Shown here piece after piece: positions 1-57,919 of a DNA stretch of 64,000 bases. The stretch spans positions 1 through 64,000 of IMG/VR virus record IMGVR_UViG_3300032093_011400; one strand, given 5' to 3'. The position numbers were made by a program, and so were the translations under genes. Below the pieces are notes generated by a model. That model searched no databases and was not told the origin of the DNA. It saw nothing but the letters and a program-made list of their open reading frames with translations. Numbering within the stretch: the first letter of the stretch is position 1; each line of letters starts with the position of its first letter. This stretch comes from a virus.

Positions 1-168
1 CTAATCTTAGATTAGGCTACAGTTACTTCTTCAGTACGGATTAAACCGAGTGTAGAAAGTTTTGCAATTGTGTTGCCGTTTGTGTTTTAAACCAGTTTTA
101 CAGGGTTAGTTTAGCCCTGACGTGCGTTTTATGACAGATTCATACCTGTCAAATCCAAAAACATCCCC
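1..168 (-). ncRNA. ssrA: tmRNA (ssrA), 5' part, truncated by window edge
   Basis: Transfer-messenger RNA rescues stalled ribosomes by adding a degradation tag. Reading the minus strand from 168, the RNA starts GGGGATG, five T, then GGATTTGACAGG. This matches the tmRNA 5' consensus in sequence and in the 12-nt spacing to the D-arm-like GGATT. A pseudoknot (PK1) follows: stem 1 CAGGG/CCCTG (119-115 with 105-101) and stem 2 TAAAC/GTTTA (113-109 with 92-88). Ten bases later a GGC codon (77-75) is the likely resume codon of a 21-codon tag starting GNTIAKLST and ending EEVTVA, with stop TAA at 14-12. The stop lies in a CTAATC/GATTAG hairpin, as in helix 5 of other tmRNAs. The tag is much longer than the usual 8-15 residues and lacks the usual LAA end. 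The downstream pseudoknots and the 3' tRNA-like half lie left of base 1. Confidence 0.85.
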
Positions 169-190: not shown

Positions 191-222
191 CAAAGATATA
201 AATATATTCTTCTTTTACCAAG
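191..222 (-). promoter_or_regulatory. Bacteroidota-type promoter for tmRNA
   Basis: On the minus strand CTTG (222-219), 20 bases and TATCTTTG (198-191) fit the Bacteroidota housekeeping promoter TTTG-N19-21-TAnnTTTG. The mature tmRNA 5' end is 22 bases downstream, consistent with a short leader removed by RNase P. The late-type motif ATATTTATAT (205-196) overlaps it on the same strand, so the RNA might be made both early and late. Confidence 0.6.
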
Positions 223-243: not shown

Positions 244-1323
244 ATGAGTCAACTTTATCAGGCATTAAAAGATTTTACGGAAGATTTAGTTACCGCAAAT
301 TTTGTTAGGTACGAAGACGATGAGGATATTTTACGTATTACAAGAATAAATGAAAAAAATCTTGGTAAGTCTTTGGTTTATTTAACGTTTGATACTAATG
401 ATTATGTTGACCTTTTCACTAGAAATAATGATGAAACTAATAACGGTTATTTAATTAGAGTTGCTTTCCAAGGGGGGTATTATGGAGGTAATGTTTTTGT
501 TGATGATTATTCCATGGATTATGATTGGGACGAGGGTTATTTACTACACTATTTCAATGATGAGAATTTAGATAGGGTTAAACAAATAGTAAAAATATTA
601 AGACCTAGTCTTTCCGTTGATGATTTAAGAAATCATAACGATAAAGTTATTGAAATTTGTAAGTGGTTAAAAAATGAATTTTCAAATGAGATAGATAGTA
701 TTATTTACGATTATTCAAGTGAATATGATGAAGCCTTGGTTAAAGGATTAAGACAATATGTTACATCTAAATTATGTAACGCTTTACTTCCTTTAAATAT
801 CTTTGAGAAAAAATGTACTAATCTCTACATGACAACTGTAGCAATTCTTTTAAATACTTGGGATAAATCTGGTGAAGACAAAGACGCTAAACTTTCAGAT
901 ATGTTAAAAACAAGTATTGACCAATTGGGAATACAGTTTGATGAAGATTTATATGAAGATTATTATGCTTATTTTGATAGTCAAAATTATGATGATGAAG
1001 GTTTTAACAGAAGTGTAACTTGGAATCTTGACAAAATCATGGAAAAAATTGAAAATAGTGATAATATCGATTCTTATCGTAAAAACTCTGAAATACTTGA
1101 AAAATTATCAAAGTTAAAGTATAGTGAATTTAATAAATGGTATGAATTTCCTTCACAAAAAACATTTGGTGAAAAGACACCAAACAAATTCATAATTCAA
1201 GATGTTGATGACGGAAAGATACTTGTTACATATAGTAATCATAGTAAAAATGAATTTAACCAAACCGTTAAAATTGATTATGATACTTTTTTAAATTTTT
1301 TATATCATCCTGAATTGTTTTAA
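244..1323 (+). CDS. Hypothetical acidic protein, 359 aa
   Basis: I do not recognise this family. The protein is soluble, rich in Asp, Glu, Asn and Tyr, with no signal peptide or membrane segment. The N-terminal third has many aromatic and acidic residues (DDYSMDYDWDEGYLLHYF near residues 88-105) and the rest looks mainly helical. It is divergent from the tmRNA and reads toward the peptidase gene 27 bases downstream. The ATG follows an AAAAAAAAGTTTA stretch with no Shine-Dalgarno sequence, as is typical of Bacteroidota genes. Confidence 0.8.
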   Translation: MSQLYQALKDFTEDLVTANFVRYEDDEDILRITRINEKNLGKSLVYLTFDTNDYVDLFTRNNDETNNGYLIRVAFQGGYYGGNVFVDDYSMDYDWDEGYLLHYFNDENLDRVKQIVKILRPSLSVDDLRNHNDKVIEICKWLKNEFSNEIDSIIYDYSSEYDEALVKGLRQYVTSKLCNALLPLNIFEKKCTNLYMTTVAILLNTWDKSGEDKDAKLSDMLKTSIDQLGIQFDEDLYEDYYAYFDSQNYDDEGFNRSVTWNLDKIMEKIENSDNIDSYRKNSEILEKLSKLKYSEFNKWYEFPSQKTFGEKTPNKFIIQDVDDGKILVTYSNHSKNEFNQTVKIDYDTFLNFLYHPELF

Positions 1324-1350: not shown

Positions 1351-2169
1351 ATGATAGAAAATGTTGATTTCTTAAAAAAGGTATTGTCAATACCTACAAA
1401 ATCATTTAAAGAAGATTTAATGATTGAATTTTTGGTTGAATATTTAACCGAAAAAAAACACAATTTTAAAGTTGATGACTTTGGAAATGTTTATGTCACA
1501 AAGGGTGAAATAAACGAGGGTGAATTTTATCCTTGTATTGTCGCACATACCGATACGGTTCATAACATTGACACAATCAATATCCATGAAGAACAACTTA
1601 AAGATTCAAAAGGTAATCTAAGTTTATCTCTTAAGGCATATAACGATTTGGGTAACCCAACAGGTATTGGTGGTGATGATAAGTGTGGAGTGTTTGCTTG
1701 TCTTCAGTTATTGGAAGTCTTTGATGTAATTAAAGTTGCTTTATTTGTATCTGAAGAAGTTGGTTGTTTGGGTTCAAAAGAAGCTGACAGAGATTTCTTT
1801 AGTAATGTAGGTTACGCAATTCAATTTGACGCTCCTGACGACTACATGGTAACAGAATATTGTTATGGTGTTAAAGTATTTGAAACGGATTCTGAATTTG
1901 AAACAAAAGCTAAAAAAGTTCTTTCTGAAGGTATGTTGTCTGAACCAAAATATATGCAACACCCTTACACTGATGTTTGGCAACTTCGTAAGAAGTTTGA
2001 CTTCTCTTGTATCAACTTCTCAATCGGATATCATAACTATCACACACCAAATGAGTATGTTGTTGTCCATGAAGTTTTTGCTGGTATGAATACAGGTAAA
2101 AAACTAATCGAAGAACTTGGTAAACAGAAATACCAATTCATACATAATTCACAAATGTTTAATTTTTAA
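1351..2169 (+). CDS. M20-family metallopeptidase (peptidase T-like), single domain
   Basis: Predicted zinc exopeptidase that hydrolyses short peptides in the cytoplasm. Visible M20-clan motifs are HTDTV (His66, Asp68), GIGGDDKCG (106-113, bridging Asp), SEEVGCLGS (Glu135 and Glu136, catalytic and metal-binding), QFDAP (Asp160) and a C-terminal YHNYHTPNEY stretch that supplies the last His. At 272 aa it is far shorter than peptidase T or the usual M20 enzymes (about 400 aa). The inserted dimerisation (lid) domain is missing, leaving only the catalytic core. It converges on the Clp unfoldase gene across a shared terminator and lies near the tmRNA, so a role in finishing degradation of tagged or host proteins is an attractive inference. 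Confidence 0.85.
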   Translation: MIENVDFLKKVLSIPTKSFKEDLMIEFLVEYLTEKKHNFKVDDFGNVYVTKGEINEGEFYPCIVAHTDTVHNIDTINIHEEQLKDSKGNLSLSLKAYNDLGNPTGIGGDDKCGVFACLQLLEVFDVIKVALFVSEEVGCLGSKEADRDFFSNVGYAIQFDAPDDYMVTEYCYGVKVFETDSEFETKAKKVLSEGMLSEPKYMQHPYTDVWQLRKKFDFSCINFSIGYHNYHTPNEYVVVHEVFAGMNTGKKLIEELGKQKYQFIHNSQMFNF

Positions 2170-2173
2170 TCAT

Positions 2174-2201
2174 AAAAAAAGGGGGTTTATTCCCCCTTTT
2201 T
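2174..2201. terminator. Bidirectional intrinsic terminator
   Basis: A7-GGGGG, loop TTTATT, CCCCC-T5 between the convergent peptidase and Clp genes. With A-runs and T-runs on both sides it can stop transcription on either strand. The last codons of the Clp gene overlap the stem. Confidence 0.85.
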
Positions 2202-4250
2202 CTTTCTTGGTCTTTTCACTTTTGGTGTTTCATCAGGTTGGACTTCAACTTCTGTTATTGAAACCTCTTCTTCATTGATTTCGATATTATAAGTCTTACC
2301 TAATACAATTTTTTCACGTAATACTTCATCTGAAATGTAGTCTTCAATCTTTTCTTGGATTGCTCTCTTTAGAGGACGTGCTCCGTAAACATCATCAAAT
2401 CCTACTTTTGAAACAAAGTCAATTACTGATTGACCAAAATTAATGTTGTAACCCAAGTTTAATAGACGAGTTTTTAGTTTGTTAATTTCAACCAAAACAA
2501 TCTTTTGGATATCGTCATTTTGAAGTGTGTTGAATACAATTACTTCATCCAAACGATTGATGAACTCAGGTGCGAAGTGATTCTTCAATTCTTTATTCAA
2601 CATCGTTTTCTTAAGTTCTTCATTGGTGTAAACATTACCTGTCTTACTAAATCCAACACCTGCACCAAACTCTTGCATCTTTTTCACCCCAAGATTTGAA
2701 GTCATGATGATTAAACAGTTTTTGAAATTGATTTTTCTTCCAAAACTATCCGTCATGTAACCTTCGTCTAATAGTTGAAGTAATGCTGAGAAGATATCTT
2801 TGTGGGCTTTCTCAACCTCGTCAAATAATACTACAGAATATGGTTTGGTTTTTACTTGTTCTGTAAGTTGTCCACCTTCATCATATCCAACATAACCAGG
2901 AGGTGAACCAATCAAACGAGATACGGTATGTTTTTCTTGGAATTCAGACATATCAACTCGGATAAGGTTTTCCTCACTTCCAAAAATTTGTTTAGCCAAT
3001 TCTTTAGCCAACAATGTCTTACCAACACCTGTTGAACCTAAGAATATAAATGAACCAATTGGTTTATTTGGGTCTTTGATACCTAATCTATTTCTACGAA
3101 TAGATTTTGCAATTTTAGTAACAGCATCTTTTTGTCCAACTACTGATTTGTTTAACTCTTCTTCTAAATTAATAAGAGCAACTTTATCATCTAAATTAAG
3201 TTTAGTTAAAGGTATTTTTGTCATTGTTGACACTACCTCATAAACCAATTCTTCAGAAATTGTTTTTCTATTATCTAAAAGAGTTTGTTCAAACTTTTTC
3301 TTTTCAATATCGAGTTGTGATAAAACTTTCTTTTCTTTATCTCTTAAGTTTGCGGCTTCTTCGTAATTCTGTTTTTTAACAACAAGTAATTTTTGTTGTT
3401 TAATTTCTAATGCCTGACGTTTTAATTCATCAATAATTTCAGGATTTTTCACATCTACCTGAGCTCTTGCTCCAACCTCATCCAAGATGTCAAACGCTTT
3501 ATCAGGGAACTCTCTGTCTGTGATATATCGTTCCGCCAAATCAACACAGATTTGTAAAATTTCATCAGTGTAATTTACCTTGTGATAATTTTCATATCTG
3601 TCTTTAACATTCTTAAGGATTTGTAATGTTTCTTCTTTGGTTGAAGAACTAACTATTACTTTTTGGAAACGTCTATCTAACGCTCCGTCCTTTTCAATTT
3701 GTTTCTTGTACTCATCCAATGTTGTTGCTCCAATACATTGTATTTCACCTCTTGATAATGCAGGTTTTAGAATGTTAGATGCATCCATTGAACCTGATGC
3801 GTTACCCGCTCCTACAATAGTATGGATTTCATCAATGAATAGAATAACATTAGGGTTTGCCTGAATTTCTTCCAAGATAACCTTTAATCGTTCTTCAAAT
3901 TGACCACGATACTTTGTTCCGGCAATTACCGAATTCATCTCTAATGATAAAATACGTTTATCAATTAGGTTTCTTGGACAATCACCTTCAAAAATCTTCA
4001 TAGCCAACCCCTCAACAATTGCGGTCTTACCACAACCAGGTTCACCAATAATAATTGGGTTATTTTTCTTTCTTCTTGAAAGAATTTGTGCAATTCGTAA
4101 TATTTCGTTTTCCCTACCTACAACTGGGTCTAATTTACCTTCCTCGGCAAGTTTAATAAGGTCACGACTAAAATTGTCTAGAACAGGTGTACTTGAGTTT
4201 ACCTCTGTCTTTTTTGGTAGTTTTCCACCTTCATCAACTGAATCTGTCAT
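2187..4250 (-). CDS. ClpC-like AAA+ unfoldase without N-domain
   Basis: Two-ring AAA+ protein unfoldase, 687 aa. D1 has Walker A GEPGCGKT (69-76) and Walker B LFIDE (137-141). A UVR-like middle segment (about 294-318, NYEEAANLRDKE) is typical of ClpC/ClpE. D2 has Walker A GSTGVGKT (405-412), the GYVGYDEGG pore loop (about 452-460) and Walker B VLFDE. A VGF tripeptide at 532-534 sits where ClpA/ClpC carry the loop that docks on ClpP, which argues for a protease partner rather than a ClpB-type disaggregase. The usual N-terminal Clp repeat domain (about 150 aa, adaptor and substrate binding) is absent. The C-terminus is basic (KRPRKKKGE). No clpP is visible here, so it would have to use host ClpP. 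It lies 2 kb from the tmRNA. Confidence 0.92.
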   Translation of the reverse strand: MTDSVDEGGKLPKKTEVNSSTPVLDNFSRDLIKLAEEGKLDPVVGRENEILRIAQILSRRKKNNPIIIGEPGCGKTAIVEGLAMKIFEGDCPRNLIDKRILSLEMNSVIAGTKYRGQFEERLKVILEEIQANPNVILFIDEIHTIVGAGNASGSMDASNILKPALSRGEIQCIGATTLDEYKKQIEKDGALDRRFQKVIVSSSTKEETLQILKNVKDRYENYHKVNYTDEILQICVDLAERYITDREFPDKAFDILDEVGARAQVDVKNPEIIDELKRQALEIKQQKLLVVKKQNYEEAANLRDKEKKVLSQLDIEKKKFEQTLLDNRKTISEELVYEVVSTMTKIPLTKLNLDDKVALINLEEELNKSVVGQKDAVTKIAKSIRRNRLGIKDPNKPIGSFIFLGSTGVGKTLLAKELAKQIFGSEENLIRVDMSEFQEKHTVSRLIGSPPGYVGYDEGGQLTEQVKTKPYSVVLFDEVEKAHKDIFSALLQLLDEGYMTDSFGRKINFKNCLIIMTSNLGVKKMQEFGAGVGFSKTGNVYTNEELKKTMLNKELKNHFAPEFINRLDEVIVFNTLQNDDIQKIVLVEINKLKTRLLNLGYNINFGQSVIDFVSKVGFDDVYGARPLKRAIQEKIEDYISDEVLREKIVLGKTYNIEINEEEVSITEVEVQPDETPKVKRPRKKKGE

Positions 4251-7266: not shown

Positions 7267-8131
7267 GATAGGTTTTACTAAAGAAAATTTAAGTAAACAA
7301 TCTCCAAAACAAATTAATACCTTATATGAATCTATGGTTAATGCCCATGGATTTATTGGTTATGGTAAAATGAATAAACCTATTGGGAATATGTTTTCGA
7401 GTGGTAAAAAATCTGAAACTAAAGAAGCAATTACCCAAACTAAAGATATAACAACAACAACAAATATACCTTTATCGGATATTCAAAATAAAGGGGCGGT
7501 AATTCCAAAATCAAATGACCCTAACAAACCATCAACCGCTAAAGTGGAAAACGGAGTTTTAAAAATATCAACAGCTGAAGGTGAAATGACTGAGGGTAAG
7601 AAAAAAACAAAAAAGAAAGTTGAAAAAAATCCTTGGGCTATCTGTACATCATCATTGGGTTTAGAAGGTAAAAAGAAAGACGATTACACTAAAGGTGAAG
7701 ATAAGAAATTTGAAAGATGTGTTCTTGATGTCAAAAAGTCATTAAAAGAAGGTAAAAATCCATATGAAGTTATTTTGGAACGAAAAATGAGAGAAATCAT
7801 TGAAGAAAATTTAAGACCATCTATGACAAAAAAAGATTTAATCAGAAGTATTTTGGAATCACAAACAAAAGAAAAAGAAAGAACAAAAGAAAAAGAAAAA
7901 ACAACAACTCCTACGAGAAAAAACCCTTTCAAACCAGCACCAGACACTGAACCAAGACCAAAAGGTTCTGGTACAAAAGAAAAAGAAAGAACTAAGGAAA
8001 AGGAAAAGACAACTACTCCGACTAGAAAAAATCCTTTCAAACCAGCACCAGACACTGAACCAAGACCAAAAGGTGAATTACCATCTTATTTGAGTTTTGG
8101 TAAAATGAATATTAAATTAAAAGGTGAGTAA
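7232..8131 (+). CDS. Lys/Glu/Thr-rich protein with two tandem 36-residue repeats
   Basis: Start taken at MEIKKQIQ (7232); an upstream in-frame ATG (7205) lies deeper inside the preceding gene. The protein is about 299 aa. Its N-terminal half is basic and partly disordered, and a central WAICTSSLG...KFERCVLDVKKSLKEG segment resembles a short helical motif common in marine phage proteins. The C-terminal third carries two near-identical Thr-Lys-Glu-Arg/Pro-rich repeats (7865-7966 and 7973-8074). Function unknown; the context is virion assembly. Confidence 0.7.
   Translation: MEIKKQIQKLVEIGFTKENLSKQSPKQINTLYESMVNAHGFIGYGKMNKPIGNMFSSGKKSETKEAITQTKDITTTTNIPLSDIQNKGAVIPKSNDPNKPSTAKVENGVLKISTAEGEMTEGKKKTKKKVEKNPWAICTSSLGLEGKKKDDYTKGEDKKFERCVLDVKKSLKEGKNPYEVILERKMREIIEENLRPSMTKKDLIRSILESQTKEKERTKEKEKTTTPTRKNPFKPAPDTEPRPKGSGTKEKERTKEKEKTTTPTRKNPFKPAPDTEPRPKGELPSYLSFGKMNIKLKGE
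7865..8074 (+). repeat. Two in-frame 102-bp coding repeats, period 108 bp
   Basis: Units 7865-7966 and 7973-8074 are separated by a Ser-Gly linker and encode the same 34 residues (TKEKERTKEKEK... NPFKPAPDTEPRPKG). The last ~40 bases are identical between copies, while the first ~60 differ at several synonymous sites. This suggests either partial gene conversion or different ages of the two halves. Confidence 0.85.
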
Positions 8132-11400: not shown

Positions 11401-13248
11401 ATGAGTGAAAATAAACTAACGGTATGGCAAAGGTTATCACAGACCTTTGGCCCTAATTCATTATTAGGTCAGGATTACCCTACATACAAATATGATAAAA
11501 GCGAGTTATTAAAAACAACCTCAAAGGCCGAATACGAAAGAGAGAAACTTCAAGCTCAACAAACATATTATTTGGCGAACCAATGGGGTCGAATTGAAAA
11601 TAATCTATATACTCAAGCAGTTTATTACGAACCAACCCGTTTAGCATCTTTTTATGACTATGAGTCAATGGAGTTTACACCTGAAATTGGTGCTGCTTTA
11701 GACATTTACGCTGAGGAATCTACCACCATCAATCAAGATGGTTACATGTTACAAATTTATTCTGAATCGTCAAGAATTAAATCAATTCTTGGGGATTTGT
11801 TTAATAACGCTTTAGATATTAACACTAACTTACCCATGTGGACAAGAAACACATGTAAGTATGGTGATAACTTTGTTTATATAAAATTAGACCCTGAAAA
11901 AGGTGTTGTAGGATGTATGCAGTTACCAATTATTGAAATTGAACGATTGGAAGCGGGTATGGGTTCACATTCAACTGATTCAACTACTAATCCTGAAAAA
12001 AAACATTTAAAGTTTAAATGGAAACAGAAAGATTTAGAATTTAATACTTGGGAAATTGCTCACTTCAGATTATTAGGTGATGATAGAAGATTACCTTATG
12101 GTACATCTATGTTAGAAAAAGCTCGTCGTATTTGGAAACAATTATTGTTATCAGAAGATGCGATGTTAATTTACAGAACATCAAGAGCTCCTGAAAGACG
12201 TGTATTTAAAGTGTTTGTTGGAAATATGGATGATGCGGATGTTGAACCATATATCCAAAGATTTGCGAATAAATTTAAGAGAAGTCAAACTGTTGACCCA
12301 AAATCGGGTAATGTAGATATGAGATTTAATCAGATGGCGGTTGACCAAGATTATTTCGTTCCTGTTAGAGATACCGCACAGGCAAGTCCTATTGAGACAT
12401 TAGCGGGGGCACAGAACCTATCTGAAATTGCGGATATCGAATATATCCAAAAGAAATTATTAACAGCTTTAAGAGTACCTAAAGCGTTTTTAGGTTTTGA
12501 AGAAACTGTTGGTGACGGTAAAAATTTATCACTACAAGATATTCGTTTTGCAAGAACTATTAACAGAATTCAAAAAAATATGATTTCTGAATTGAATAAA
12601 ATTGCTATTATACATTTATTCATTTTAGGTTTTGAAGATGAAATATCAAATTTCCAACTTAGTTTAACAAATCCGTCAACTCAGGCAGATTTGATGAAAA
12701 TTGATGTATGGAAAGAAAAGATTTTATTATATAAGGATTTAGTTGCTGACCCTGGTAGTGGAATTGCACCAGTGTCTATGTCATGGGCTAAGAAACACAT
12801 TCTTGGGTTTTCTGATGAAGAAATTAAACTTGACTTACAACAACAACGTATTGAAAGAGCCGTTGGTGAAGAACTTAAGAAAACTGCTGAAGTTATTACT
12901 CATACAGGTTTATTTGATAATTTAGATAAATTATATGGTAAAAAAGAGGGTGAACCAGCAGGTGCCCCATCAGAAGGTGGGGGAGCACCACCTGAATCAG
13001 GATTAGGAGGAATGGAAGGATTTGGAGGTGGTTCCGAAAGTGCTGCACCACCATCTGAAAGTCCTGCCCCACCACCGGCAGAAGGTGCGGGTACAGTTCC
13101 TGAAAACATAGAAAAACGTAATTCAGGACTTAATATTTTATTAGAAAATAGTGGAATGTTAAATGAAGATGAACTGATTGATTTAGGTAGAGTTCAAGAA
13201 TCATTGGGTGAAATTGGAAATCAATTGGATAAACTATTAAAGGATTGA
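11401..13248 (+). CDS. Portal protein (T4 gp20-like)
   Basis: Forms the dodecameric ring at the packaging vertex. Family features are an N-terminal region with YEPTRLASFYDYESMEFTPEIGAALDIYAEESTT (first ~100 aa), a central core with RRIWKQLLLSEDAMLIYRTSRAPERRVF (about residues 240-270), and the conserved LLTALRVPKAFLGFEE segment (~355-370) followed by ARTINRIQKNM. The C-terminal ~90 residues are a Gly/Pro/Ser-rich linker (about 515-570) and a short acidic helix, longer than in T4 gp20 (524 aa). It lies directly downstream of the terminase. Confidence 0.93.
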   Translation: MSENKLTVWQRLSQTFGPNSLLGQDYPTYKYDKSELLKTTSKAEYEREKLQAQQTYYLANQWGRIENNLYTQAVYYEPTRLASFYDYESMEFTPEIGAALDIYAEESTTINQDGYMLQIYSESSRIKSILGDLFNNALDINTNLPMWTRNTCKYGDNFVYIKLDPEKGVVGCMQLPIIEIERLEAGMGSHSTDSTTNPEKKHLKFKWKQKDLEFNTWEIAHFRLLGDDRRLPYGTSMLEKARRIWKQLLLSEDAMLIYRTSRAPERRVFKVFVGNMDDADVEPYIQRFANKFKRSQTVDPKSGNVDMRFNQMAVDQDYFVPVRDTAQASPIETLAGAQNLSEIADIEYIQKKLLTALRVPKAFLGFEETVGDGKNLSLQDIRFARTINRIQKNMISELNKIAIIHLFILGFEDEISNFQLSLTNPSTQADLMKIDVWKEKILLYKDLVADPGSGIAPVSMSWAKKHILGFSDEEIKLDLQQQRIERAVGEELKKTAEVITHTGLFDNLDKLYGKKEGEPAGAPSEGGGAPPESGLGGMEGFGGGSESAAPPSESPAPPPAEGAGTVPENIEKRNSGLNILLENSGMLNEDELIDLGRVQESLGEIGNQLDKLLKD

Positions 13249-31858: not shown

Positions 31859-32683
31859 TTAATTTTTGTGTAACTTTTTTGAGAATGATTGCATTTCATT
31901 TATTTGAAATTCCAACTCAGGTATATCATATTTTGTATCAAAAATAGTCGATAAAGTTCTATCAACAGTTAATTCTGAATTCATGGCGTTAATACCAATA
32001 TTTAATTCATATGAATTTGATATCATTTTTACTAAATCGTATTTTGTAACTTGAGTTGGTGAAACAAAATGTTTAATCCCTTTCCAAAAATCTTTGTTAT
32101 CAATAATTTTTTCCACTAATTTAGCCCATTCTAAACAAGTAATACCATTCCAAAAATGATTTAAAAAACCATTAACTGTATTATTTTTTTGACTTTTAAC
32201 CCATTCAACTAAAGACCTATGTTGATTAACTTCTTCACCAATTATTGAAGTTCTTATTATTGTACAATTACTTGGTTCTCCCATAGCTTTAGACATACCA
32301 TATACATCATCAACATCATATTTATCTTTTTCATCATATCTACCTTTTTTACCTGAAAAGACACAATCAGTTGTTGGATGAATCATATTCCATTCATTTT
32401 TCTCACAAACATTAGCTAATAATCTTGGAAAAACTGAGTTTACTAAAATTGCGTTTAAGTCACCTAATTGGTCAACTCTTGGTTTAATTGTACCAATACA
32501 ATTTATAATAACATCACCCTGATTTACTCCACAATTGATTAAAATTTCTTCTAATGTTTTTTCTGTCTGTTGAGATGCGTCAAGAACATCTCTGTTAATT
32601 TCATTAACATTAAATTTTTCAGATAAATAAGTGTAAACATATTTACCTAACATACCTTTTGAACCTAAAATATAAATTTTCAT
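31859..32683 (-). CDS. RmlD-like NAD(P)-dependent sugar reductase/epimerase
   Basis: About 274 aa from MKIYILGSKGMLGKYVYTYL; the Gly-rich Rossmann motif is at the very N-terminus, so the start is ATG 32683 and not the ORF's upstream ATG at 32746, which overlaps the previous gene. Other features are NCIGTIKPRVDQ and the YDEKDKYDVDDVYGMSKAMGE segment with the catalytic Tyr-x3-Lys. Family members reduce dTDP-4-keto sugars or act on UDP-sugars. Directly follows the RmlC-like cupin gene, suggesting one pathway. Confidence 0.8.
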   Translation of the reverse strand: MKIYILGSKGMLGKYVYTYLSEKFNVNEINRDVLDASQQTEKTLEEILINCGVNQGDVIINCIGTIKPRVDQLGDLNAILVNSVFPRLLANVCEKNEWNMIHPTTDCVFSGKKGRYDEKDKYDVDDVYGMSKAMGEPSNCTIIRTSIIGEEVNQHRSLVEWVKSQKNNTVNGFLNHFWNGITCLEWAKLVEKIIDNKDFWKGIKHFVSPTQVTKYDLVKMISNSYELNIGINAMNSELTVDRTLSTIFDTKYDIPELEFQINEMQSFSKKLHKN

Positions 32684-32708
32684 AATTTTTTTACTTTTTT
32701 TATTTTTT

Positions 32709-33128
32709 TTATCTAAAATCTTCTTCCCATATATTCCAATTATCATGTGGTAATCTTATATCGTCACCTAAACTTTCTTCTAATGATGTAGTAGAAAAGA
32801 AAATAACTGAAGTATTTTCTTCCAAATTTTTAAAACCATTATAATGATTCGGTGGGATAAATAATACTTTTGGTTGTCTTGCACTTAAAATATATTTTGT
32901 AATTTCTTCAGTTTCCATATTAACAATTCCAATAAGTGCGGTACCACTAGATACATAAACATATTTCCCTTCTTTTTTATGACCATGCCACGCTCTTATA
33001 AATCCTTGTCTATGATTCTCAACTTGGTAAAATCTCTTTACATTTTCAAAATTGAAATCATTAACAAATCTAACCGAACCTCTATCATCAACAGAGATAC
33101 CACCATTCATTAATTTTTTTGTGTCCAT
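32709..33128 (-). CDS. RmlC/FdtA-like sugar cupin
   Basis: 139 aa single cupin. HGHKKEGKYVYVSSGTALIG and KVLFIPPNHYNGFKNLEE match the two cupin strands of dTDP-4-keto sugar 3,5-epimerases and 3,4-ketoisomerases (His residues in the active site). N-terminal DDRGSVRFVNDF is typical of the family. Overlaps the downstream end of the 33110 SDR gene by 19 bases. Confidence 0.8.
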   Translation of the reverse strand: MDTKKLMNGGISVDDRGSVRFVNDFNFENVKRFYQVENHRQGFIRAWHGHKKEGKYVYVSSGTALIGIVNMETEEITKYILSARQPKVLFIPPNHYNGFKNLEENTSVIFFSTTSLEESLGDDIRLPHDNWNIWEEDFR

Positions 33129-34084
33129 AATAATTCTTTTTGATTTTTTTTATTTGTTAAAAACGCTCCATTGTGGTAAACTTTATCTTCAGGGTTTTCA
33201 ATTCTATTTTCTTCAAATAAAGTTACCATTCTTAATACCTCATCCTCAACGGTTGTAATTGGTTTATATTTAAAAACTTTTAAAGATTTTGAATTATCAA
33301 CACGATAATTTCTAGCATCTTGAAAAGATATTTCAGTGTACGTTACTTTAGTATTAGGTACTATTTTAGCAACACGTTCACCTAGTTCTTTAATTATAAC
33401 ATTTTCTTTTGATAAAACAAAAATTCCCGGATACTTTTCTTTACAGGCCTCTGTAATATATCCCGCAATATCTTTAACTGCTATTATTGGTCTCCATTGT
33501 TCACCTCCATTAATAGTTATAGTACCTTCTTTTACCGCCTTCATAGTTAATACATTAACAACTAAATCCATTCTAATTCTAGAATATGTGTCACCAAGAC
33601 CAAATACAGTTCCTAATCTAAAAATTGTCCCATTTTTGTCTAAAATGTGTTTTTCGGCTTTAAGTTTTGTTGATGCATATGATGATAATGGATTTGTTTC
33701 ACTTAATTCATCTAATATACCATCTTGAGCCCCGTAAACTGAACACGTAGACATGAAAATTAAATGTTTATCGGGTGAAACAATATCACAAAAATTTTTA
33801 ATAGAATTATAATTAATTTCTTCAGTTAAAAATGGGTCAACACTACAAGCCGGGTCACCAACTAAAGCAGCCATTAAAACTATAATATCAAAATCTTTAG
33901 ATACTTCATAAAGTTTATCAGTATCTCTAATGTCTCCATAAATAAAAGAAACATCTTTTAAATACCTATTTTCATATAATAAATTATCGTAAATAGTTAT
34001 ATCAAACCCTTCTCTAATAAGATAATCTGATGTTAATCCTCCGATGTAACCGGCACCACCTACTAATAAAACTTTTTCTTTCAT
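33110..34084 (-). CDS. NAD-dependent epimerase/dehydratase (extended SDR)
   Basis: 324 aa. GGAGYIGGLTSDYLI near the N-terminus binds NAD; STCSVYGAQDG and YASTKLKAEKH give the catalytic Ser and Tyr-x3-Lys; FRLGTVFGLGDTYSRIRMDLVVN and GGEQWRPIIAVKDIA are substrate-domain motifs. Closest in style to UDP-glucose 4-epimerase-like proteins of O-antigen clusters. Exact substrate cannot be told from sequence. Confidence 0.88.
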   Translation of the reverse strand: MKEKVLLVGGAGYIGGLTSDYLIREGFDITIYDNLLYENRYLKDVSFIYGDIRDTDKLYEVSKDFDIIVLMAALVGDPACSVDPFLTEEINYNSIKNFCDIVSPDKHLIFMSTCSVYGAQDGILDELSETNPLSSYASTKLKAEKHILDKNGTIFRLGTVFGLGDTYSRIRMDLVVNVLTMKAVKEGTITINGGEQWRPIIAVKDIAGYITEACKEKYPGIFVLSKENVIIKELGERVAKIVPNTKVTYTEISFQDARNYRVDNSKSLKVFKYKPITTVEDEVLRMVTLFEENRIENPEDKVYHNGAFLTNKKNQKELLWTQKN

Positions 34085-34106
34085 TATTTTATATAATTTA
34101 TTTATT

Positions 34107-34760
34107 TTATATTTTTATTTTGTAATCCATGAATGTTTCTGATTTACCTACGTCAATACTAAAAAATGAATCAGACCATGGTAGAAATTTTATGTTTGTT
34201 TTTTCACCTATGTTATAATCATAAGTTTCTTCTGGTAATAATCGTTTTACATATTTATCACCTGGTAAATCACCATGCTCCCATTTTTTATCAAAATGGT
34301 TTTTTGTATTTGATATGTTCCATCCTGAACTCATAGAGATATAATCTATTTCAAATGAATTATACATGGCAATATTGCCCTCCATCATTCTTCTTAGGTA
34401 ATCACTATCTTCATAATTACCCCCAATAAATCTTTCATCCATAAACCCAATATTTCTAAATAATTCTTTTTTAAAACCAAAAAACCCCCACGCATATAAT
34501 CCAACAAACCCATATCCTTGTTCTAAAAGAGTTAAAATTTTTTCAATATGTTCTTTTTTAGGTCTAGCTTTGTCATTACAAATAATAATGGTTTCTGTTG
34601 GTGATTCAACAACACAATCATTAATTAATTTTGAGAAAGATGGGTATCCGTGACCATTTTTCCAAATTGATTCTTCATCCATGTTTTTTAAATGAGTAAT
34701 TAATTCATCTTTTAAAGAGTCTCTATTGCTTGGTATAATTATAGTATATTCTTTATTCAT
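34107..34760 (-). CDS. Glycosyltransferase-like protein (GT-A), 217 aa
   Basis: EYTIIIPSNRDSLKDELITHL opens like a GT-A domain; IICNDKARPKKEHI and GFFGFKKELFRNIGFMDERFIGGNYEDSDYLRRMM resemble the acceptor-side GFDExFxxGxEDxD motif of family 2 enzymes. The N-terminal nucleotide site is short. Probably a glycosyltransferase, lower certainty than its neighbours. Confidence 0.65.
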   Translation of the reverse strand: MNKEYTIIIPSNRDSLKDELITHLKNMDEESIWKNGHGYPSFSKLINDCVVESPTETIIICNDKARPKKEHIEKILTLLEQGYGFVGLYAWGFFGFKKELFRNIGFMDERFIGGNYEDSDYLRRMMEGNIAMYNSFEIDYISMSSGWNISNTKNHFDKKWEHGDLPGDKYVKRLLPEETYDYNIGEKTNIKFLPWSDSFFSIDVGKSETFMDYKIKI

Positions 34761-34783
34761 GGTAATTTTAATTTATTTTTTTA

Positions 34784-35317
34784 TTATCCATTATTTAAAA
34801 ATTTACTAACACGTCTGTCAATAGAACGTTTGACAATTGTTAAACCCGCTTCGGATATGGGGAATGTAAAAATATCCATCTCAGGATATTCAGTTTTAAT
34901 CCAATCTATCATTTTATAAGAATCCTCACAGTGTTCTCGGGTAATATATTTTTCAGAAATTGGGTCAGTATCATGTAAAATAATTACCCCAAATTCATTT
35001 AAATTTTTAAGTGATGCTTTGAAATCTAATTTAACCGCTTCAAACGCATGGTCAGCATCTATGAAAATAACATCTACTATTTCATTAAAATTATTTAAAA
35101 AGTCTTGTGTTGATGTTTGATGGAACTCACCAATGTTTTTATTTCTTCTAAAATCAATAATATCAACCCCAATTACCCTAGGTACTACTTCTGAAACTTT
35201 TTCAAAAGTTGACCCATCATATACACCTAATTCTAAATAATTTTTACAATTAATTGATTTAACTATTTGGACTATCATGTCCGTGTGAACTTCATGTCCG
35301 TATGCAAATTTATCCAT
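34784..35317 (-). CDS. Class I SAM-dependent methyltransferase
   Basis: 177 aa. YLELGVYDGSTFEKVSEVVPRVIGVDI is motif I and the acidic end of strand 2; VDVIFIDADHAFEAVKLDFKASLKNLNEFGVIILHDTDP is motif II-III, the arrangement of the Methyltransf_24 group. Within a glycan island it may methylate a sugar or a terminal residue that stops chain growth, but the substrate is unknown. Confidence 0.8.
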   Translation of the reverse strand: MDKFAYGHEVHTDMIVQIVKSINCKNYLELGVYDGSTFEKVSEVVPRVIGVDIIDFRRNKNIGEFHQTSTQDFLNNFNEIVDVIFIDADHAFEAVKLDFKASLKNLNEFGVIILHDTDPISEKYITREHCEDSYKMIDWIKTEYPEMDIFTFPISEAGLTIVKRSIDRRVSKFLNNG

Positions 35318-35382
35318 ATTTTTTATTTTAAATTAATAAAAAATATGGATACAGTAAACATTAAGTGTTGTTTTTATTCATC

Positions 35383-36207
35383 TTAAAAAACAGGTATTGT
35401 TTCGGCTTTACATCCGCCAAACCACCAAATACATTCTGAAAATGTACTAAGACGATTACAAACCAACATATCACATTTTGAGGCTATTAACATAGTTGCT
35501 GTAGAATATTGCATTTGAGTAACATTATCTGGTTTAGTGTAAGTTATTACATTGTAGTCTTTTAAATATTCTAAATATTCAGGTAAAACACTGTCGTTAT
35601 CTGAAGTAAGAAAAATAGTTTTTACTTTTGGTAAAAATTCATTAATTGCATTTTTATAAGTTTCAAAATTATAATCTCTAATAACTCCGTCTCGAATACT
35701 TGTACAGTTTGGAGGGTCAAATTGATGAGTCCAAGTTCTTATTTGTATGGTAAGTAATGGGTATTCAAAATGTTTTGACACTCTATCAACTTCGGATAAA
35801 ACTTCAGGTCTCCATTTAATTTTACTAATTCCTTTTTGTATTCTGTTAAATACTGTATCACATATTAAATTTCTATTAAAAAACCAATCAATTGAATGTG
35901 TTGAAAATAAATAAGAAAGTGATTTATTTACGATATTAGGGTGGTCACCTAAAGCTTTAGCGTCGTTTATTAAATCAGGTTGTTCTGTTTCTTCTGATTT
36001 TAAAACTAAAAATCTTGCAGAAATAAAAGAATTACCAAATTCGTGTGGGTTATGGCAAATTAAACTATCATCTAAAATTTCTCGATAATCAGCGTCAAAA
36101 TGTGCGTCAAATCTAGGTAAAATATTAGTTTCACCTATACTTAAAGCGGTGACAAAAGATTTTAAAACATTACATAAACCAGATTTTATTTCTACCGTAA
36201 ATTTCAT
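35383..36207 (-). CDS. Fucosyltransferase-like protein
   Basis: About 274 aa from MKFTVEIKSGLCN (ATG 36207; the longer ORF start overlaps the previous gene). LLTIQIRTWTHQF corresponds to the HxRxxD-type donor motif of alpha-1,2/1,6 fucosyltransferase and NodZ-like enzymes, IFLTSDNDSVLPEY is the second motif, and CNRLSTFSECIWWFGG the third. GDP-fucose-like donors would need GDP-mannose 4,6-dehydratase, which is two genes upstream. Confidence 0.65.
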   Translation of the reverse strand: MKFTVEIKSGLCNVLKSFVTALSIGETNILPRFDAHFDADYREILDDSLICHNPHEFGNSFISARFLVLKSEETEQPDLINDAKALGDHPNIVNKSLSYLFSTHSIDWFFNRNLICDTVFNRIQKGISKIKWRPEVLSEVDRVSKHFEYPLLTIQIRTWTHQFDPPNCTSIRDGVIRDYNFETYKNAINEFLPKVKTIFLTSDNDSVLPEYLEYLKDYNVITYTKPDNVTQMQYSTATMLIASKCDMLVCNRLSTFSECIWWFGGCKAETIPVF

Positions 36208-36214
36208 ATATGTA

Positions 36215-37138
36215 TTATTTAACAAATTCATTAATTAAATTATTCCATTTTTCACGACAACGTTCTAAAGTATATTCTTTTGAATAATATTCTCGTGGTG
36301 AAAAAAGATTTCGATTACTAATAACGTATCTTATTGTTTCAGGAAAATTTTCATCGTTAGATACTAACCCCCATGTTTTATCATCTTGTCTATCTAAATA
36401 ACATCCCATAGGTCTTGCAACCATTGGTATGTCACATGCACCTATTTCAATTCCTGCAAAATGACCTTCTTCATTTCCTGATGTACAAATACCACACACT
36501 GATGAATTTATTAAAAGTCTAACTGTATTTGTGTCAACTCTGTTAAATATTCTTACTCTATTTCTATTATGTTCAGGAATTGCGTCAATAGTTGTATTAT
36601 CTTTCATTACTAAACAAAAATTAAAATCCGTCATTGTTTCAATGAGGTTTAAAACTCTATGAAATCCTTTTTTTTCATGAGAAGAATCACCTATAAAAAT
36701 AATTGAATTAGGTAAAACTTCTGGATGTCTTTCAGGAATAGGTTTAAAAAAATTAAAATCTGATGATTGTTCAATTACTCTTACATTTTTTGGATTAATT
36801 CTTTCTTTATAAAGATTATACGTTTGTTTAGACGCAAATACAACACAAGTACATGAATTTATAACTTCAGTTTGCATTGGATTATCCATAGTATCTTGTA
36901 TTAGACAGAATGTTGGGACATCAATATTAAGTTTACGAAAATAACTTCCATTTCTAATTATATAATCAGGGCGCTCTCTAATAGATTCTATTTTATCAGC
37001 TAATATTGCATAACTTGTATATCCGTCACATTTATCTTGAAGGCCTGGAAACCATTCTAATAGGTCATGCCAAAATGTTCTCGTGTTTGGAATACACGTA
37101 AGTGTATCGTTAACTAACCACCCAATTTTATTATCCAT
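36215..37138 (-). CDS. Glycosyltransferase family 4-like
   Basis: 307 aa. GT-B C-terminal half is clear: IIFIGDSSHEKKGFHRVLNLIETM and CTSGNEEGHFAGIEIGACDIPMVARPMGC, with the Glu-rich donor site (EGHFAGIEIGA). The N-terminal half is short. Starts immediately after the GDP-mannose dehydratase gene, so may use a GDP-linked sugar. Confidence 0.8.
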   Translation of the reverse strand: MDNKIGWLVNDTLTCIPNTRTFWHDLLEWFPGLQDKCDGYTSYAILADKIESIRERPDYIIRNGSYFRKLNIDVPTFCLIQDTMDNPMQTEVINSCTCVVFASKQTYNLYKERINPKNVRVIEQSSDFNFFKPIPERHPEVLPNSIIFIGDSSHEKKGFHRVLNLIETMTDFNFCLVMKDNTTIDAIPEHNRNRVRIFNRVDTNTVRLLINSSVCGICTSGNEEGHFAGIEIGACDIPMVARPMGCYLDRQDDKTWGLVSNDENFPETIRYVISNRNLFSPREYYSKEYTLERCREKWNNLINEFVK

Positions 37139-37146
37139 AGTATGTT

Positions 37147-38118
37147 TTATTTTTTATAAATGTTTAACCAATAATCAATCATTTCATCCATCATTGTCTC
37201 AAAACTATATTCAGGTTTCCATCCTAAAGACCTAATTTTACTTGAGTCACCTTTAAGGTATGGTAATTCTTCAGGACGTAAAAACTTATCATTTTGAACA
37301 ACATAGTCTTTATAATTTAAATTTAATTTACTAAAAACATATTCACACATATCTCTAACTGACCTTGACTCCCCAGTTGCCACAACTAAGTCGACTGGTT
37401 TATCCTGTTGTAATATTAAATGCATTGCTTTTACATAGTCTTTGGAATGTCCCCAATCTCTATATGAATCCATGTTACCAAGTTCTAATTTATCAGATAA
37501 ACCTAAACTTATCATCACCGCGGCTTTAACTACTTTATTAGTAACAAAATTAGAACCTCTACGAGGAGATTCATGATTGAATAAAATACCATTATTAGCA
37601 TGTAAATTATATGCGTTTCTATAATTTCGAACAATATTATACCCAAATACTTTACTACATCCATATGGTGAAACTGGATTCATATGAGTTGTTTCTCTTT
37701 GGTACCCATCAGGGTCTACCGAACTTCCAAACATTTCCGAACTACTTGCTTGATAAAATTTTGCGTTAGGACAAACTCTACGATAAGCATCTAAAATATT
37801 TAAAACACCTAAAGAATTAACTTGTGATGTAAATTGTGGGATATCGTAACTAATACGTACATGACTTTGAGCGGCTAAGTTGTATATTTCGTCAGGTTGT
37901 ATTTCACTTAATAATCTTTCAATATTAGATTGGTCTAACAAGTCACCATAATATATATTTATTTTGTCTCGAATTTCGTCAAGTCTACTTTGTTGGTGTT
38001 CAGGTGTAGAATTTCTTCGTATAATACCATGAACTTCATATCCTAATGATAAAAGATATTCCGCTAGATATGACCCATCTTGGCCACCCACACCGGTTAT
38101 AAATGCACGTTTAATCAT
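37147..38118 (-). CDS. gmd: GDP-mannose 4,6-dehydratase
   Basis: 323 aa. NAD(P) motif GVGGQDGSYLAEYLL (8-22), IYYGDLLDQSNIERLL, YNLAAQSHVRISYDIP, the catalytic SSSEMFG with YGCSKVFGYNIVRNYR (Tyr-x3-Lys), FNHESPRRGSNFVTNK, and LGNMDSYRDWGHSKDYV. These are the diagnostic Gmd motifs. It makes GDP-4-keto-6-deoxymannose, the branch point to GDP-fucose, -rhamnose or -perosamine. No GDP-fucose synthase (Fcl) is seen, but a DegT-like aminotransferase and RmlD-like reductase are present nearby. Confidence 0.95.
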   Translation of the reverse strand: MIKRAFITGVGGQDGSYLAEYLLSLGYEVHGIIRRNSTPEHQQSRLDEIRDKINIYYGDLLDQSNIERLLSEIQPDEIYNLAAQSHVRISYDIPQFTSQVNSLGVLNILDAYRRVCPNAKFYQASSSEMFGSSVDPDGYQRETTHMNPVSPYGCSKVFGYNIVRNYRNAYNLHANNGILFNHESPRRGSNFVTNKVVKAAVMISLGLSDKLELGNMDSYRDWGHSKDYVKAMHLILQQDKPVDLVVATGESRSVRDMCEYVFSKLNLNYKDYVVQNDKFLRPEELPYLKGDSSKIRSLGWKPEYSFETMMDEMIDYWLNIYKK

Positions 38119-38127
38119 ATTTTATTT

Positions 38128-38736
38128 TTAACTTTTAAAAAAATTCATTTTAGTCAAATCTGGCCAATCCTCATATTTCCATTTTCTAGGATTTGTATTA
38201 ATGGCATTAGATAATTTATCTAATCCTAATTTAGCGGTTTCAGGAGTCATATAGTAATGGTAACCCATTGTATCGATATTTTGTTCTCTCCATGGAATAT
38301 TGGGTAGTCTACCGTCATAACTCATTTTTTTTAACTGAATAGCATCTTGTTCGTTGTCCAAAAGAATCATTCCACCTCTACCTAAACTTAAATGTTTTTG
38401 AAATTGAAAACTTAAACACATATACGTATTTGGAATATAACTGTCTTTTTTCCACAGTACTGCTGCGTCAATTATTTTTTTTTCTTCGTAATTTAAAGTG
38501 TAGTAATCTTCCCATTTTTCATCTCTCCATTCTAATCCAATCCCCAATTTTTTAGACAACATGGGTACGGATAAATAAGTTCGTAATGGGACGTTAATTT
38601 TAGTAGTATTTGTTAATCTTAAACATAACTCTATACCATGAGTACAACTATCTACAGCAACTGCGTAAGGGGCGTTGTAAAATTGTGATATCTTTTTTTC
38701 AAATTCCGTCACAGTATCCATATTCACTTGTTCCAT
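38128..38736 (-). CDS. Short DegT/DnrJ-type aminotransferase, single domain
   Basis: 202 aa against about 370 for the family. Present: VDSCTHGIELCLRL (cofactor-phosphate loop), KIIDAAVLWKK (the Asp that contacts the pyridine N), SFQFQKHLSLGRGGMI with the PLP-binding Lys (about 134), and MGYHYYMTPETAKLGLDKL. The C-terminal small domain is missing. A working dimeric fold is uncertain. It might make an amino sugar (perosamine-like) from the Gmd product, or have a non-catalytic role. Upstream of gmd by 9 bases. Confidence 0.75.
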   Translation of the reverse strand: MEQVNMDTVTEFEKKISQFYNAPYAVAVDSCTHGIELCLRLTNTTKINVPLRTYLSVPMLSKKLGIGLEWRDEKWEDYYTLNYEEKKIIDAAVLWKKDSYIPNTYMCLSFQFQKHLSLGRGGMILLDNEQDAIQLKKMSYDGRLPNIPWREQNIDTMGYHYYMTPETAKLGLDKLSNAINTNPRKWKYEDWPDLTKMNFFKS

Positions 38737-38740
38737 AAGA

Positions 38741-39268
38741 TTAATAATTATATCCTAATTTTTTCGCGTTGTAAAGTATTCTTGTACTATCTATTTTTTT
38801 AACTAAAATTGCTGGATTTCCCTTATATACCCCCCATTCTTCAGTATCACCCATTAATAAACTACCTGCGGATAATAGAACACCACGTCTTAATCTTGAG
38901 CCGGGTAATACAATAGAATTTGTTCCGATATTAGAAAATTCTTCCATAAGAACAGGTTTAATTATTTGAGTACCTTTTAATTCTTCAGGTATCATCGCTC
39001 CAAATAATCCACTATCATCAAATCTATCTGAACCACATACAATTCTAGCTCCGGCCATTATGTTATTAAACCCTTTGGCCGTAAAATCTGAGTTTTTACC
39101 ACCTATAATTGTTACATAAGGACTAATATGTGTATAATCACCAATATATAATTTTGTTGTACAATAAAATCCTTTATCTATTGCAACATGACTACCTATA
39201 ACACAATTATTTTTTTCTTTTATTATTATATCTAAATCTAAAACAACATCACTACCTATTTTCATCAA
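38741..39268 (-). CDS. Hexapeptide-repeat sugar O/N-acetyltransferase
   Basis: 175 aa left-handed beta-helix: repeated [IV]GxxxxI steps (CVIGSHVAIDKG, LYIGDYTHISPYVTII, SNIGTNSIVLPGSRLRRGVLLSAGSLL) and the C-terminal YKGNPAILVKK end typical of acyl-CoA-dependent acetyltransferases. Next to the aminotransferase, so N-acetylation of an amino sugar is plausible. Overlaps the cupin gene by 4 bases. Confidence 0.85.
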   Translation of the reverse strand: MMKIGSDVVLDLDIIIKEKNNCVIGSHVAIDKGFYCTTKLYIGDYTHISPYVTIIGGKNSDFTAKGFNNIMAGARIVCGSDRFDDSGLFGAMIPEELKGTQIIKPVLMEEFSNIGTNSIVLPGSRLRRGVLLSAGSLLMGDTEEWGVYKGNPAILVKKIDSTRILYNAKKLGYNY

Positions 39269-39675
39269 ATAAAAGTTTTATCAATTGTTTGACCAAAATA
39301 TGGCCCTGTTTTGTATTCATATACAATAGTATCGTCTTCTAAAATCAAATAATTATGACCACCATTAAATGTAAAACTAATATCACCTGCGGATAATATA
39401 GGTTCCGCAATTATATTATCATCAATGTCATAGAAAATACATTTTACCTTTCCTTTTATAACACACCAACTTTCCTGAGGTATGTAATTTTCATCATGTC
39501 TTGGGATTATATTATGTTTGTGAGGTTTAAATGTATGTCCTTTAGATAATTTTAAACTGGCACATTGAAGGTAGTTTTTATCTAAGCTTAAATCAGTTCG
39601 TTCAGAAGTAACATCAGATAATCTCACAATTTGATGAAGGAGTTCTCCATTAATTTTAGAATATATTTTTTCCAT
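39265..39675 (-). CDS. Cupin protein of the glycan island
   Basis: 136 aa. GHTFKPHKHN and ESWCVIKGKVKCIFYD with DISFTFNGGHNYLIL give the cupin barrel with candidate metal-binding His residues. Similar to sugar isomerase or epimerase cupins in O-antigen clusters. Specific reaction unknown. Confidence 0.72.
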   Translation of the reverse strand: MEKIYSKINGELLHQIVRLSDVTSERTDLSLDKNYLQCASLKLSKGHTFKPHKHNIIPRHDENYIPQESWCVIKGKVKCIFYDIDDNIIAEPILSAGDISFTFNGGHNYLILEDDTIVYEYKTGPYFGQTIDKTFI

Positions 39676-39699
39676 TTTATTTTGTATATCTTTAATATT

Positions 39700-40425
39700 T
39701 TAATCGTCTTTTTCACCTTCTTGTATATGATAAACTAATGAATCAAATACTGTAACATGTCTCATCCCATAAGTTGATTCTAATTTTCTAAAATACCAGT
39801 CATCTCCACTTTGAACAAACCCATTTAAAGTACCAACTCCATCAGTATAAATGTTACCTTCAGGATACATACCACTTTCAATAAATCGAGTTTTTTCAAA
39901 AATACATGGCATGTATAAACCACCTGAATAAATGTTATCCTCCCTCATAGATGTATTAACTTTTTCCCAAAGTTCATAATCAATTTTTTTAGGACTTTTA
40001 CCACAATCAATACTAATACCATAAGTTCCACTCCTCATTTTACCACTCTCAACTAATCTAGATGTTGGTATATTAGTACCATCGTGATGTTTTAATAAAT
40101 TTTCTAACCATCCATTACTAAAGACCATATCTGAATTAACAAAACAAATATTATCTGATTTACTAGTTTTACCGGCGTAATTCCAACATCTATAAACTCT
40201 ATTTAAATAATAATCATTAGGAATTGGGTCATTATAAATTGAATATGGTATATCTAATTTTGTTAATTTATTTATAATCTCATCTGTTGCATCATTTGCG
40301 ACAATTCTTATTGAGACATCCCAACCATTAACTTTACATTTTTCACTAGTTAATTCTTTATGTATTAAATCTAAGTATTCTACTGATTTAAAAATTAATG
40401 AAATAATTTCAATTGATTTCTTCAT
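39700..40425 (-). CDS. Glycosyltransferase (GT-A), 241 aa
   Basis: RIVANDATDEII (nucleotide-binding region), ICFVNSDMVFSNGWLENLL (a variant of the DxD-bearing strand: NSDM) and GMYPEGNIYTDGVG with GDDWYFRKLE form a family 2-like order. The overlap of 17 bases with the next gene implies coupled translation. Confidence 0.7.
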   Translation of the reverse strand: MKKSIEIISLIFKSVEYLDLIHKELTSEKCKVNGWDVSIRIVANDATDEIINKLTKLDIPYSIYNDPIPNDYYLNRVYRCWNYAGKTSKSDNICFVNSDMVFSNGWLENLLKHHDGTNIPTSRLVESGKMRSGTYGISIDCGKSPKKIDYELWEKVNTSMREDNIYSGGLYMPCIFEKTRFIESGMYPEGNIYTDGVGTLNGFVQSGDDWYFRKLESTYGMRHVTVFDSLVYHIQEGEKDD

Positions 40426-57909: not shown

Positions 57910-57919
57910 ATATAAATAT
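57910..57919 (-). promoter_or_regulatory. Late-promoter-like motif before neck gene
   Basis: Minus-strand ATATTTATAT, 14 bases before ATG 57895. Confidence 0.5.

Follow-up and report, generated by a model that had tools for sequence, protein, structure and literature searches.

The window analysed here is a stretch of 64,000 nucleotides of viral DNA (IMG/VR record IMGVR_UViG_3300032093_011400), the first base of which coincides with one terminus of a virus contig of 88,997 bases (G000:C1:1). Its first 168 positions, read on the minus strand, are the 5' half of a phage tmRNA (ssrA) gene, truncated by the contig end. A covariance-model search matched positions 168 to 1 to RF00023 at 36.6 bits (E 2.9e-13), over model positions 1 to 179 and with the 3' side truncated. 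The score falls below the RF00023 gathering score of 47 bits because half of the gene is missing, and for the same reason the gene is overlooked by the default scans, with no call from either the default Rfam scan or ARAGORN.

The RNA starts GGGGATGTTTTTGGATTTGACAGG and contains the 5' strand of the acceptor stem, GGGGATG (162..168, minus strand), read from the sequence, which in relatives pairs with CATCTCC and includes a G3.U70 pair. The D-arm GGATTTGACAGG (145..156, minus strand) is supported by the sequence and by the Rfam alignment, and PK1 is present as aligned to RF00023. A tag reading frame of 21 codons (15..77, minus strand) opens at the resume codon GGC (77-75), encodes the peptide GNTIAKLSTLGLIRTEEVTVA and is closed by a TAA stop codon (12..14, minus strand), which lies within the 5' arm of a hairpin, CTAATC-TAA-GATTAG, read from the sequence at 1..15 of the same strand. 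When the missing 227 nt, copied from a relative (L003), were compared by blastn with all 88,997 bases of the contig, no match exceeded 12 nt. The 3' half is therefore not at the contig's other end, which rules out a circular permutation, and the gene is interrupted by a contig break.

The first 32 nt of the window tmRNA match exactly in 17 other viral stretches, and ARAGORN calls a complete tmRNA in 15 of these, of 383-398 nt and mostly of 395 nt; the two others are a gene with an intron (L009) and one that meets a contig end (L010). The latter is identical to the window (100% over 14,913 nt) and reaches 73 nt further into the tmRNA gene. Three relatives (L003, L007 and L016, with 99.96-99.97% identity to the window over 2.7-3.2 kb) hold the whole 395-nt gene, ending CATCTCCACCA, and a CCA is encoded at the 3' end of the gene in the complete relatives. 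Complete genes score 112-136 bits against RF00023 in the five loci searched. An earlier note, made from the window alone, had read this region as the 5' half of a phage-encoded tmRNA, which is borne out by the RF00023 match and by a T4-like portal on the same contig. It had also anticipated a tRNA-like 3' half and a match to a tmRNA model. The pairing strand, T-arm and CCA were found in near-identical relatives, the window's own 3' half not being seen, and the model match lies above the cut-off in complete relatives and below it in the window itself.

For a broader survey we used 116 viral loci, collected as matches to a degenerate pattern of the tmRNA 5' end. The pairing 3' acceptor strand was located by a simple scan in 78 of the 100 loci with at least 420 nt of room (one of the 78 being doubtful), and all 78 have the G3.U70 alanine-identity pair. 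One locus (L025:840..1, minus strand) has lost the end of the tag through a deletion inside the tmRNA, on a contig that keeps ClpC. No recent host donor of the phage tmRNA was seen in a search that concerns one 24-nt pattern of the 5' end, slightly narrower than the viral one: it matched only twice in the genome contigs of 84,980 species, and both matches read as tmRNAs with unrelated tags that end AA.

We additionally identified a group I intron (RF00028, 68-96 bits) in the tmRNA T-loop of nine relatives (L009, L038, L068, L076, L095, L099, L116, L167 and L178), with an inferred junction at U55|C56, between T-loop nucleotides 2 and 3. Group I introns in the T-loop of tmRNAs have been described before, and the accessible part of that account reports the position 3 subsite only from the class Bacteroidia (PMC11915505). 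We take the phage site to be this position 3 subsite, with the difference that the introns are phage-borne here.

A long tag ending V-x-V-A/S was identified in 105 of the 116 loci, as 24 peptides, one of 22 residues and the rest of 21. The remaining 11 comprise seven loci cut by contig ends (L032, L040, L053, L054, L065, L081 and L111), the deletion locus L025, and three with other tags (L105, GEVIEMNPVSASFLAA; L110, GEQVEMAMAA; and L067, with the same sequence as L110), on contigs of 15-26 kb that are too short to judge an absence of ClpC. When the tmRNAs found through ClpC (below) are added, the set rises to 142 loci, including three second readings of an already counted record, and to 41 distinct peptides (33 of 21 residues and eight of 22); L212 gives one further peptide beyond the 41. 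All 41 end in -VA (39) or -VS (2). The earlier note's tag of 21 codons ending EEVTVA, instead of LAA, is one variant of a tag shared with the relatives, the frame running in the window from GGC at 77-75 to TAA at 14-12. The commonest tag length overall is given as 10 aa (PMC11915505). No open reading frame among the 86 of the window contig ends in VA or AA, fewer than one being expected by a rough estimate, so that this absence carries no information.

The tag is constrained along its whole length. Gly1, Gly11 and Val20 are invariant in all 33 distinct 21-residue tags, and neither the resume codon GGC, nor codon 20 (GTA), nor the stop codon TAA varies in the 35 distinct 21-codon tag DNAs. Variable columns in these DNAs number 16, 7 and 18 at the first, second and third codon positions, so that the second position varies least and the first and third both vary; third positions are the most different in 14 of 16 pairs of representatives. 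Among tag-DNA pairs one nucleotide apart, the difference is silent in 10 of 15, against 26% expected, the pairs not being independent of one another. The long tag is also kept where the body of the tmRNA differs (GGGGGTAACTTGGAATTGAC types); one such RNA starts GGGGGTAACTTGGAATTGACTGGC, and the tags include GNVLDKMATIGLIREEAAVVA and GNVINKLSAVGLIRTEENISVA. The codon-position pattern, the silent excess and the retention of the same tag in different tmRNA bodies together demonstrate that the peptide is what selection keeps, and translation of the tag frame is predicted from its codon pattern. A shorter tag called by ARAGORN (AKLSTLGLIRTEEVTVA) was rejected, because in homologues the frame opens at the invariant GGC, four codons upstream. 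ARAGORN starts most of the tags at GCA, and calls the homologous L012 as GNVINKLSAVGLVRTEETVEVA, with its start at GGC.

A motif search of the upstream regions identified a -7-like promoter box, TATCTTTG (191..198, minus strand), and a -33-like TTG (219..221, minus strand), also evident in the sequence, 20 nt from it. The arrangement TTG-N18-22-TAnnTTTG lies upstream of the tmRNA 5' end in 98 of the 116 loci and in 58 of 66 distinct upstream regions (88%), compared to 0.8% of mononucleotide shuffles. We take boxes of the TAnnTTTG type to be the Bacteroidota form of promoter. The T4-like portal protein (gp20; 11401..13248, plus strand; PF07230, 4.5e-75) marks the contig as that of a T4-like tailed phage; its top relative among cultured phages is from a Microcystis phage (38%), followed by Flavobacterium phages (36%). 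A Bacteroidota host, as assumed in the earlier note, is plausible from the promoter form and the T-loop intron site, neither of which names a host, and sits less easily with the Microcystis phage as top portal relative. Two cultured phages with related portals (Microcystis phage Mel-JY01 and Flavobacterium phage immuto) gave neither a tmRNA over the cut-off nor a whole ClpC, the former giving a 40-bit partial AAA match.

Divergent from the tmRNA gene lies a gene for a 359-aa protein (244..1323, plus strand), which has a confident structural model (mean pLDDT 90.5), no Pfam or PHROG match and, at E<=0.001, no counterpart in Foldseek searches of PDB and BFVD; its relatives occur in 51 of the 70 long-tag loci that have 3 kb available. 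The following gene (1351..2169, plus strand) encodes a metallopeptidase-like protein, probably of the M42/M20/M28 kind, from weak Pfam matches below the curated cut-offs and a weak PDB match to peptidase T. Seven residues (H66, D68, D109, E135, E136, D160 and H231), which we presume to be metal ligands from the pattern of such enzymes, are invariant in 22 of 22 aligned sequences.

The next gene (2187..4250, minus strand) encodes a ClpC-type Hsp100 unfoldase of 687 aa, identified by Pfam (PF07724, 2.1e-69, plus PF17871, PF00004 and PF10431), PHROG (phrog_4871, 6.2e-237) and PDB matches, of which the nearest is ClpC of Staphylococcus aureus (6em9, 733 bits). The phage ClpC lacks the N-terminal adaptor domain: the alignment to S. 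aureus ClpC opens at query residue 17 and chain residue 156, the open frame extends upstream by at most 12 more codons, and Clp_N is not among the 25 listed of 28 Pfam matches. The two proteins share D1, the M-domain, D2 and the [VI]GF-type loop, and differ in that the phage protein starts at about residue 140-156 of the bacterial one, with no N-domain, and in a change from Phe to Tyr at the tip of the M-domain. Both AAA+ rings have the Walker motifs (G-x4-GKT and DE), and these and the YRG and GYVGY pore loops are invariant in eight of eight sequences. The ClpP-docking loop [IVL]G[FL] is present in all 44 ClpC open reading frames of at least 550 codons (37 VGF, 7 IGF), a set in which two are cut by contig ends and several come from one record. 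Similarly, the docking-type tripeptide was found in 159 of 159 stretches, many of them from overlapping loci (121 VGF, 35 IGF, 2 MGF and 1 LGF). At the M-domain tip, the position aligned with F436 of S. aureus is Tyr in 148 of 151 phage ClpC loci and Phe in three; Tyr is also found in 77 of 79 loci of huge-phage ClpCs, and is thus not specific to carriers of the tmRNA. In two records (G012:C1:31847-35469 and G061:C1:29373-32995), about 1.7 kb of inserted sequence, which may be an intron, interrupts the ClpC match.

The published precedents concern bacterial enzymes from which the N-domain was removed. Mycobacterium tuberculosis ClpC1 without its N-domain still unfolds SsrA-Kaede (PMC6274998). 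N-less S. aureus ClpC is proteolytically inactive without a change in the M-domain, and with the F436A change degrades GFP-SsrA about as well as the adaptor-driven wild type, and casein poorly (PMC12583610). An N-less ClpC with a Tyr tip would fit an enzyme specialised for C-terminal degrons, although Tyr for Phe is a mild change.

Each of the 70 long-tag loci that extend at least 3 kb upstream has both a ClpC and a peptidase gene. The near edge of ClpC lies 1.9-4.9 kb from the tmRNA, and the two genes are co-directional in 76 of 76 loci with a match; of the 88 loci with a peptidase match, 65 have the peptidase on the opposite strand from the tmRNA. At the level of whole records, two sets of searches covering 61 of the 116 loci identified ClpC in 18 of 18 and in 40 of 44 records, one of the latter (L067, with another tag) being a 46-bit partial match. 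The four misses are two loci with other tags (L105 and L110) and two whose contigs end too early (L061 and L004).

The reverse search, started from ClpC and taking the best 80 of 453 IMG/VR relatives, identified a long tag downstream of ClpC in 68 of the 80, and the contigs of the other 12 end within 2.2 kb of ClpC. Twenty of these loci are records already in the tag set; among the 60 from outside it, 49 have the tag and 11 end within 1.7 kb of ClpC. An Rfam tmRNA over the cut-off was found in 40 of 45 and in 5 of 14 of the new records searched, the misses being contig ends, two genes split by introns (L167 and L178) and one gene cut by an end (L212). The neighbours g5 and g7 of the tmRNA locus are likewise conserved, and the coupling between tmRNA and ClpC may be plain synteny. 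Neither SmpB nor ClpP gave a match in any of 18 records, nor Lon in any of 19, fragments included. This suggests that SmpB and the proteolytic core are supplied by the host, and it only suggests so because there are fragments among the records.

We additionally examined phages beyond this group. A second ClpC group was collected with a huge phage as the starting point; 38 of its 80 loci, on contigs of 41-508 kb, were searched. A tmRNA over the cut-off was found in eight of the 38 records, and the 30 without a match have fragments among them. The tmRNA lies far from ClpC in seven of the eight, and one record of this group (G140) has a tag of the window type, with the tmRNA near ClpC. A tmRNA over the cut-off was found in two of the seven INPHARED records that have ClpC-like genes and in none of the other five. 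The tmRNAs of these other phages have long tags, in most of 21-34 residues (for example GNILENATVGHFVAEDAAVVA, GKTNVWEAINSFGAPVSQVEFAVAA and GNEFDIDENFLDTASVEVGTGEVAFA), with a start that was mostly set by eye and is less certain. One 380 kb phage contig (G138, loci L344 and L357) encodes a pair of distinct tmRNAs, each with its own long tag. In blastn searches of INPHARED, two long-tag tmRNAs gave no match, and the tmRNA regions of L105, L110 and L344 have no whole relative there.

From the tmRNA gene, the tag with its coding constraint, the conserved neighbourhood and the motifs at these loci, we propose that stalled proteins are marked by the phage for its own N-less ClpC, acting together with host ClpP, with the peptidase trimming the resulting peptides, and we give this reading a probability of roughly 45%. 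The tmRNA would be transcribed from the Bacteroidota-type promoter, charged with alanine by host AlaRS through the G3.U70 pair, and would act with host SmpB on stalled ribosomes, adding the 21-residue tail. We infer that this tail is a degron, recognised wholly or partly by the phage ClpC, which has no adaptor-binding N-domain. The [VI]GF-type loop would serve the phage ClpC for docking on host ClpP, and the adjoining metallopeptidase may break the peptides down into amino acids that can be reused. The hand-over to ClpC is favoured by the co-occurrence in 70 of 70 loci, by the reverse search (68 of 80) and by the precedents of N-less ClpC acting on SsrA substrates; against it stand the ClpC genes without a tmRNA match in 30 of 38 second-group records and in five of seven INPHARED records, the distance between tmRNA and ClpC in seven of the eight second-group records with both, the inactivity of N-less S. 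aureus ClpC that has no M-domain change, and the peptidase on the other strand than the tmRNA in 65 of 88 loci.

These same 30 records speak for an ordinary phage tmRNA, the tag of which is degraded by host ClpXP (or host Lon), with ClpC unrelated and only part of the same conserved gene block. This alternative is a real possibility, rather less likely than the proposed hand-over, and it accords with a gene order that is conserved well past the tmRNA-ClpC pair and with a -VA end that is plausible as a ClpX degron. The LVA variant of the Escherichia coli tag is unstable. A long tag that is read by Lon is known from Mesoplasma florum, where it has 27 aa (PMC9097571). An ordinary tmRNA leaves unexplained, however, both the 70 of 70 co-occurrence of tmRNA and ClpC and the conservation of the whole peptide (G1, G11 and V20 in 33 of 33), not just of its end.

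The earlier note had suggested, from the non-LAA end, that stalled products may be rerouted to another fate. A non-degradative signal, in which the tail stabilises or re-routes stalled products, could draw on the EEVTVA end, the unusual length and the conserved interior of the tag. We consider it improbable, as all 41 distinct tags end in a small nonpolar residue or Ser after Val, and a Clp unfoldase and a peptidase adjoin the tmRNA gene. By analogy with known degrons, which likewise end in small, nonpolar residues, the -VA end looks like a degron, and the data are more in keeping with degradation along a route that is encoded in part by the phage. A decoy that titrates host SmpB and thereby blocks trans-translation in the host, for which the tag-less form in mycobacteriophage DS6A is a precedent (PMC11915505 and PMC4131195), would suit the lack of a phage SmpB match in 18 of 18 records but is very improbable, since a decoy needs no tag and a TLD-only form has no tag reading frame, yet here a 21-codon frame is under selection, with GGC and TAA invariant in 35 of 35 DNAs.

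Phage tmRNAs and T-loop introns are themselves already known. Such tmRNAs have been reported from 402 phages (PMC9004378), from mycobacteriophages (PMC4131195), from huge phages (PMC7162821) and from Maribacter phage Panino, the host species of which belongs to the Bacteroidota (PMC11590407). The long-tag RNA shares its phage-encoded nature with these, and with the tmRNAs of Melnitz and Bacillus phage G. The tmRNA of Melnitz differs in being two-piece and of alphaproteobacterial kinship, and SmpB is said to be carried by huge phages, whereas it was not found in the long-tag records. These descriptions, by which rather than by tag the comparison was made, mention neither a ClpC neighbour nor a conserved long tag in their accessible parts. 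In the literature searched, a scope that takes in few subscription papers, neither this tag nor a pairing of phage tmRNA with phage ClpC was found to have been described.

Compared to the standard one-piece tmRNA (RF00023), the phage RNA has the same G3.U70 acceptor stem, D-arm, PK1, resume codon, tag, hairpin stop, T-arm and CCA, and differs in a conserved tag of 21-22 residues ending -VA or -VS. The M. florum tag is likewise long, and is read by a dedicated protease (PMC9097571); in contrast, no Lon was found in the phage records, the proposed reader is ClpC, and the tag sequence looks unrelated.

The presence of a tmRNA in phages is usually explained by ribosome rescue. Here, selection on a tag peptide is evident in over 100 contigs of uncultured phages, with a candidate reader, the N-less ClpC, adjoining. 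If the proposed hand-over to ClpC is correct, it would constitute a natural degradation system orthogonal to that of the host, in which a virus takes over the host ClpP core and turns failed translation products into amino acids for its own growth. Its extension to widespread large T4-like phages of Bacteroidota, with their own line of rescue and recycling that comprises a private degron, an adaptor-free ClpC hijacking host ClpP and a finishing peptidase, orthogonal to the host tag and ClpX, is offered tentatively, as something that may well prove otherwise.

Several further features were identified in these loci and in the window. In 8 of 12 and in 4 of 9 loci searched, the long-tag tmRNA has as a neighbour, 155 nt to about 4 kb away, the giant GOLLD RNA (RF02032, 292-330 bits), the function of which is unknown, and the GOLLD and tmRNA genes converge. 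GOLLD gave no match in L003, L007, L008, L011, L012 or the window, and was identified in L037 (2643-3056), L047 (116-530), L033, L064, L020, L026, L089, L022, L038, L116, L076 and L082. The window itself contains a direct repeat of about 102 nt, 92% identical, within an open reading frame (7865-8074), and a run of sugar-nucleotide and glycosyltransferase-like genes (31859-45453, minus strand), judged by eye from the protein starts only. Finally, a 501-aa phage protein with iron/manganese superoxide dismutase domains at residues 36-226 is encoded at 57919-59424 (minus strand).
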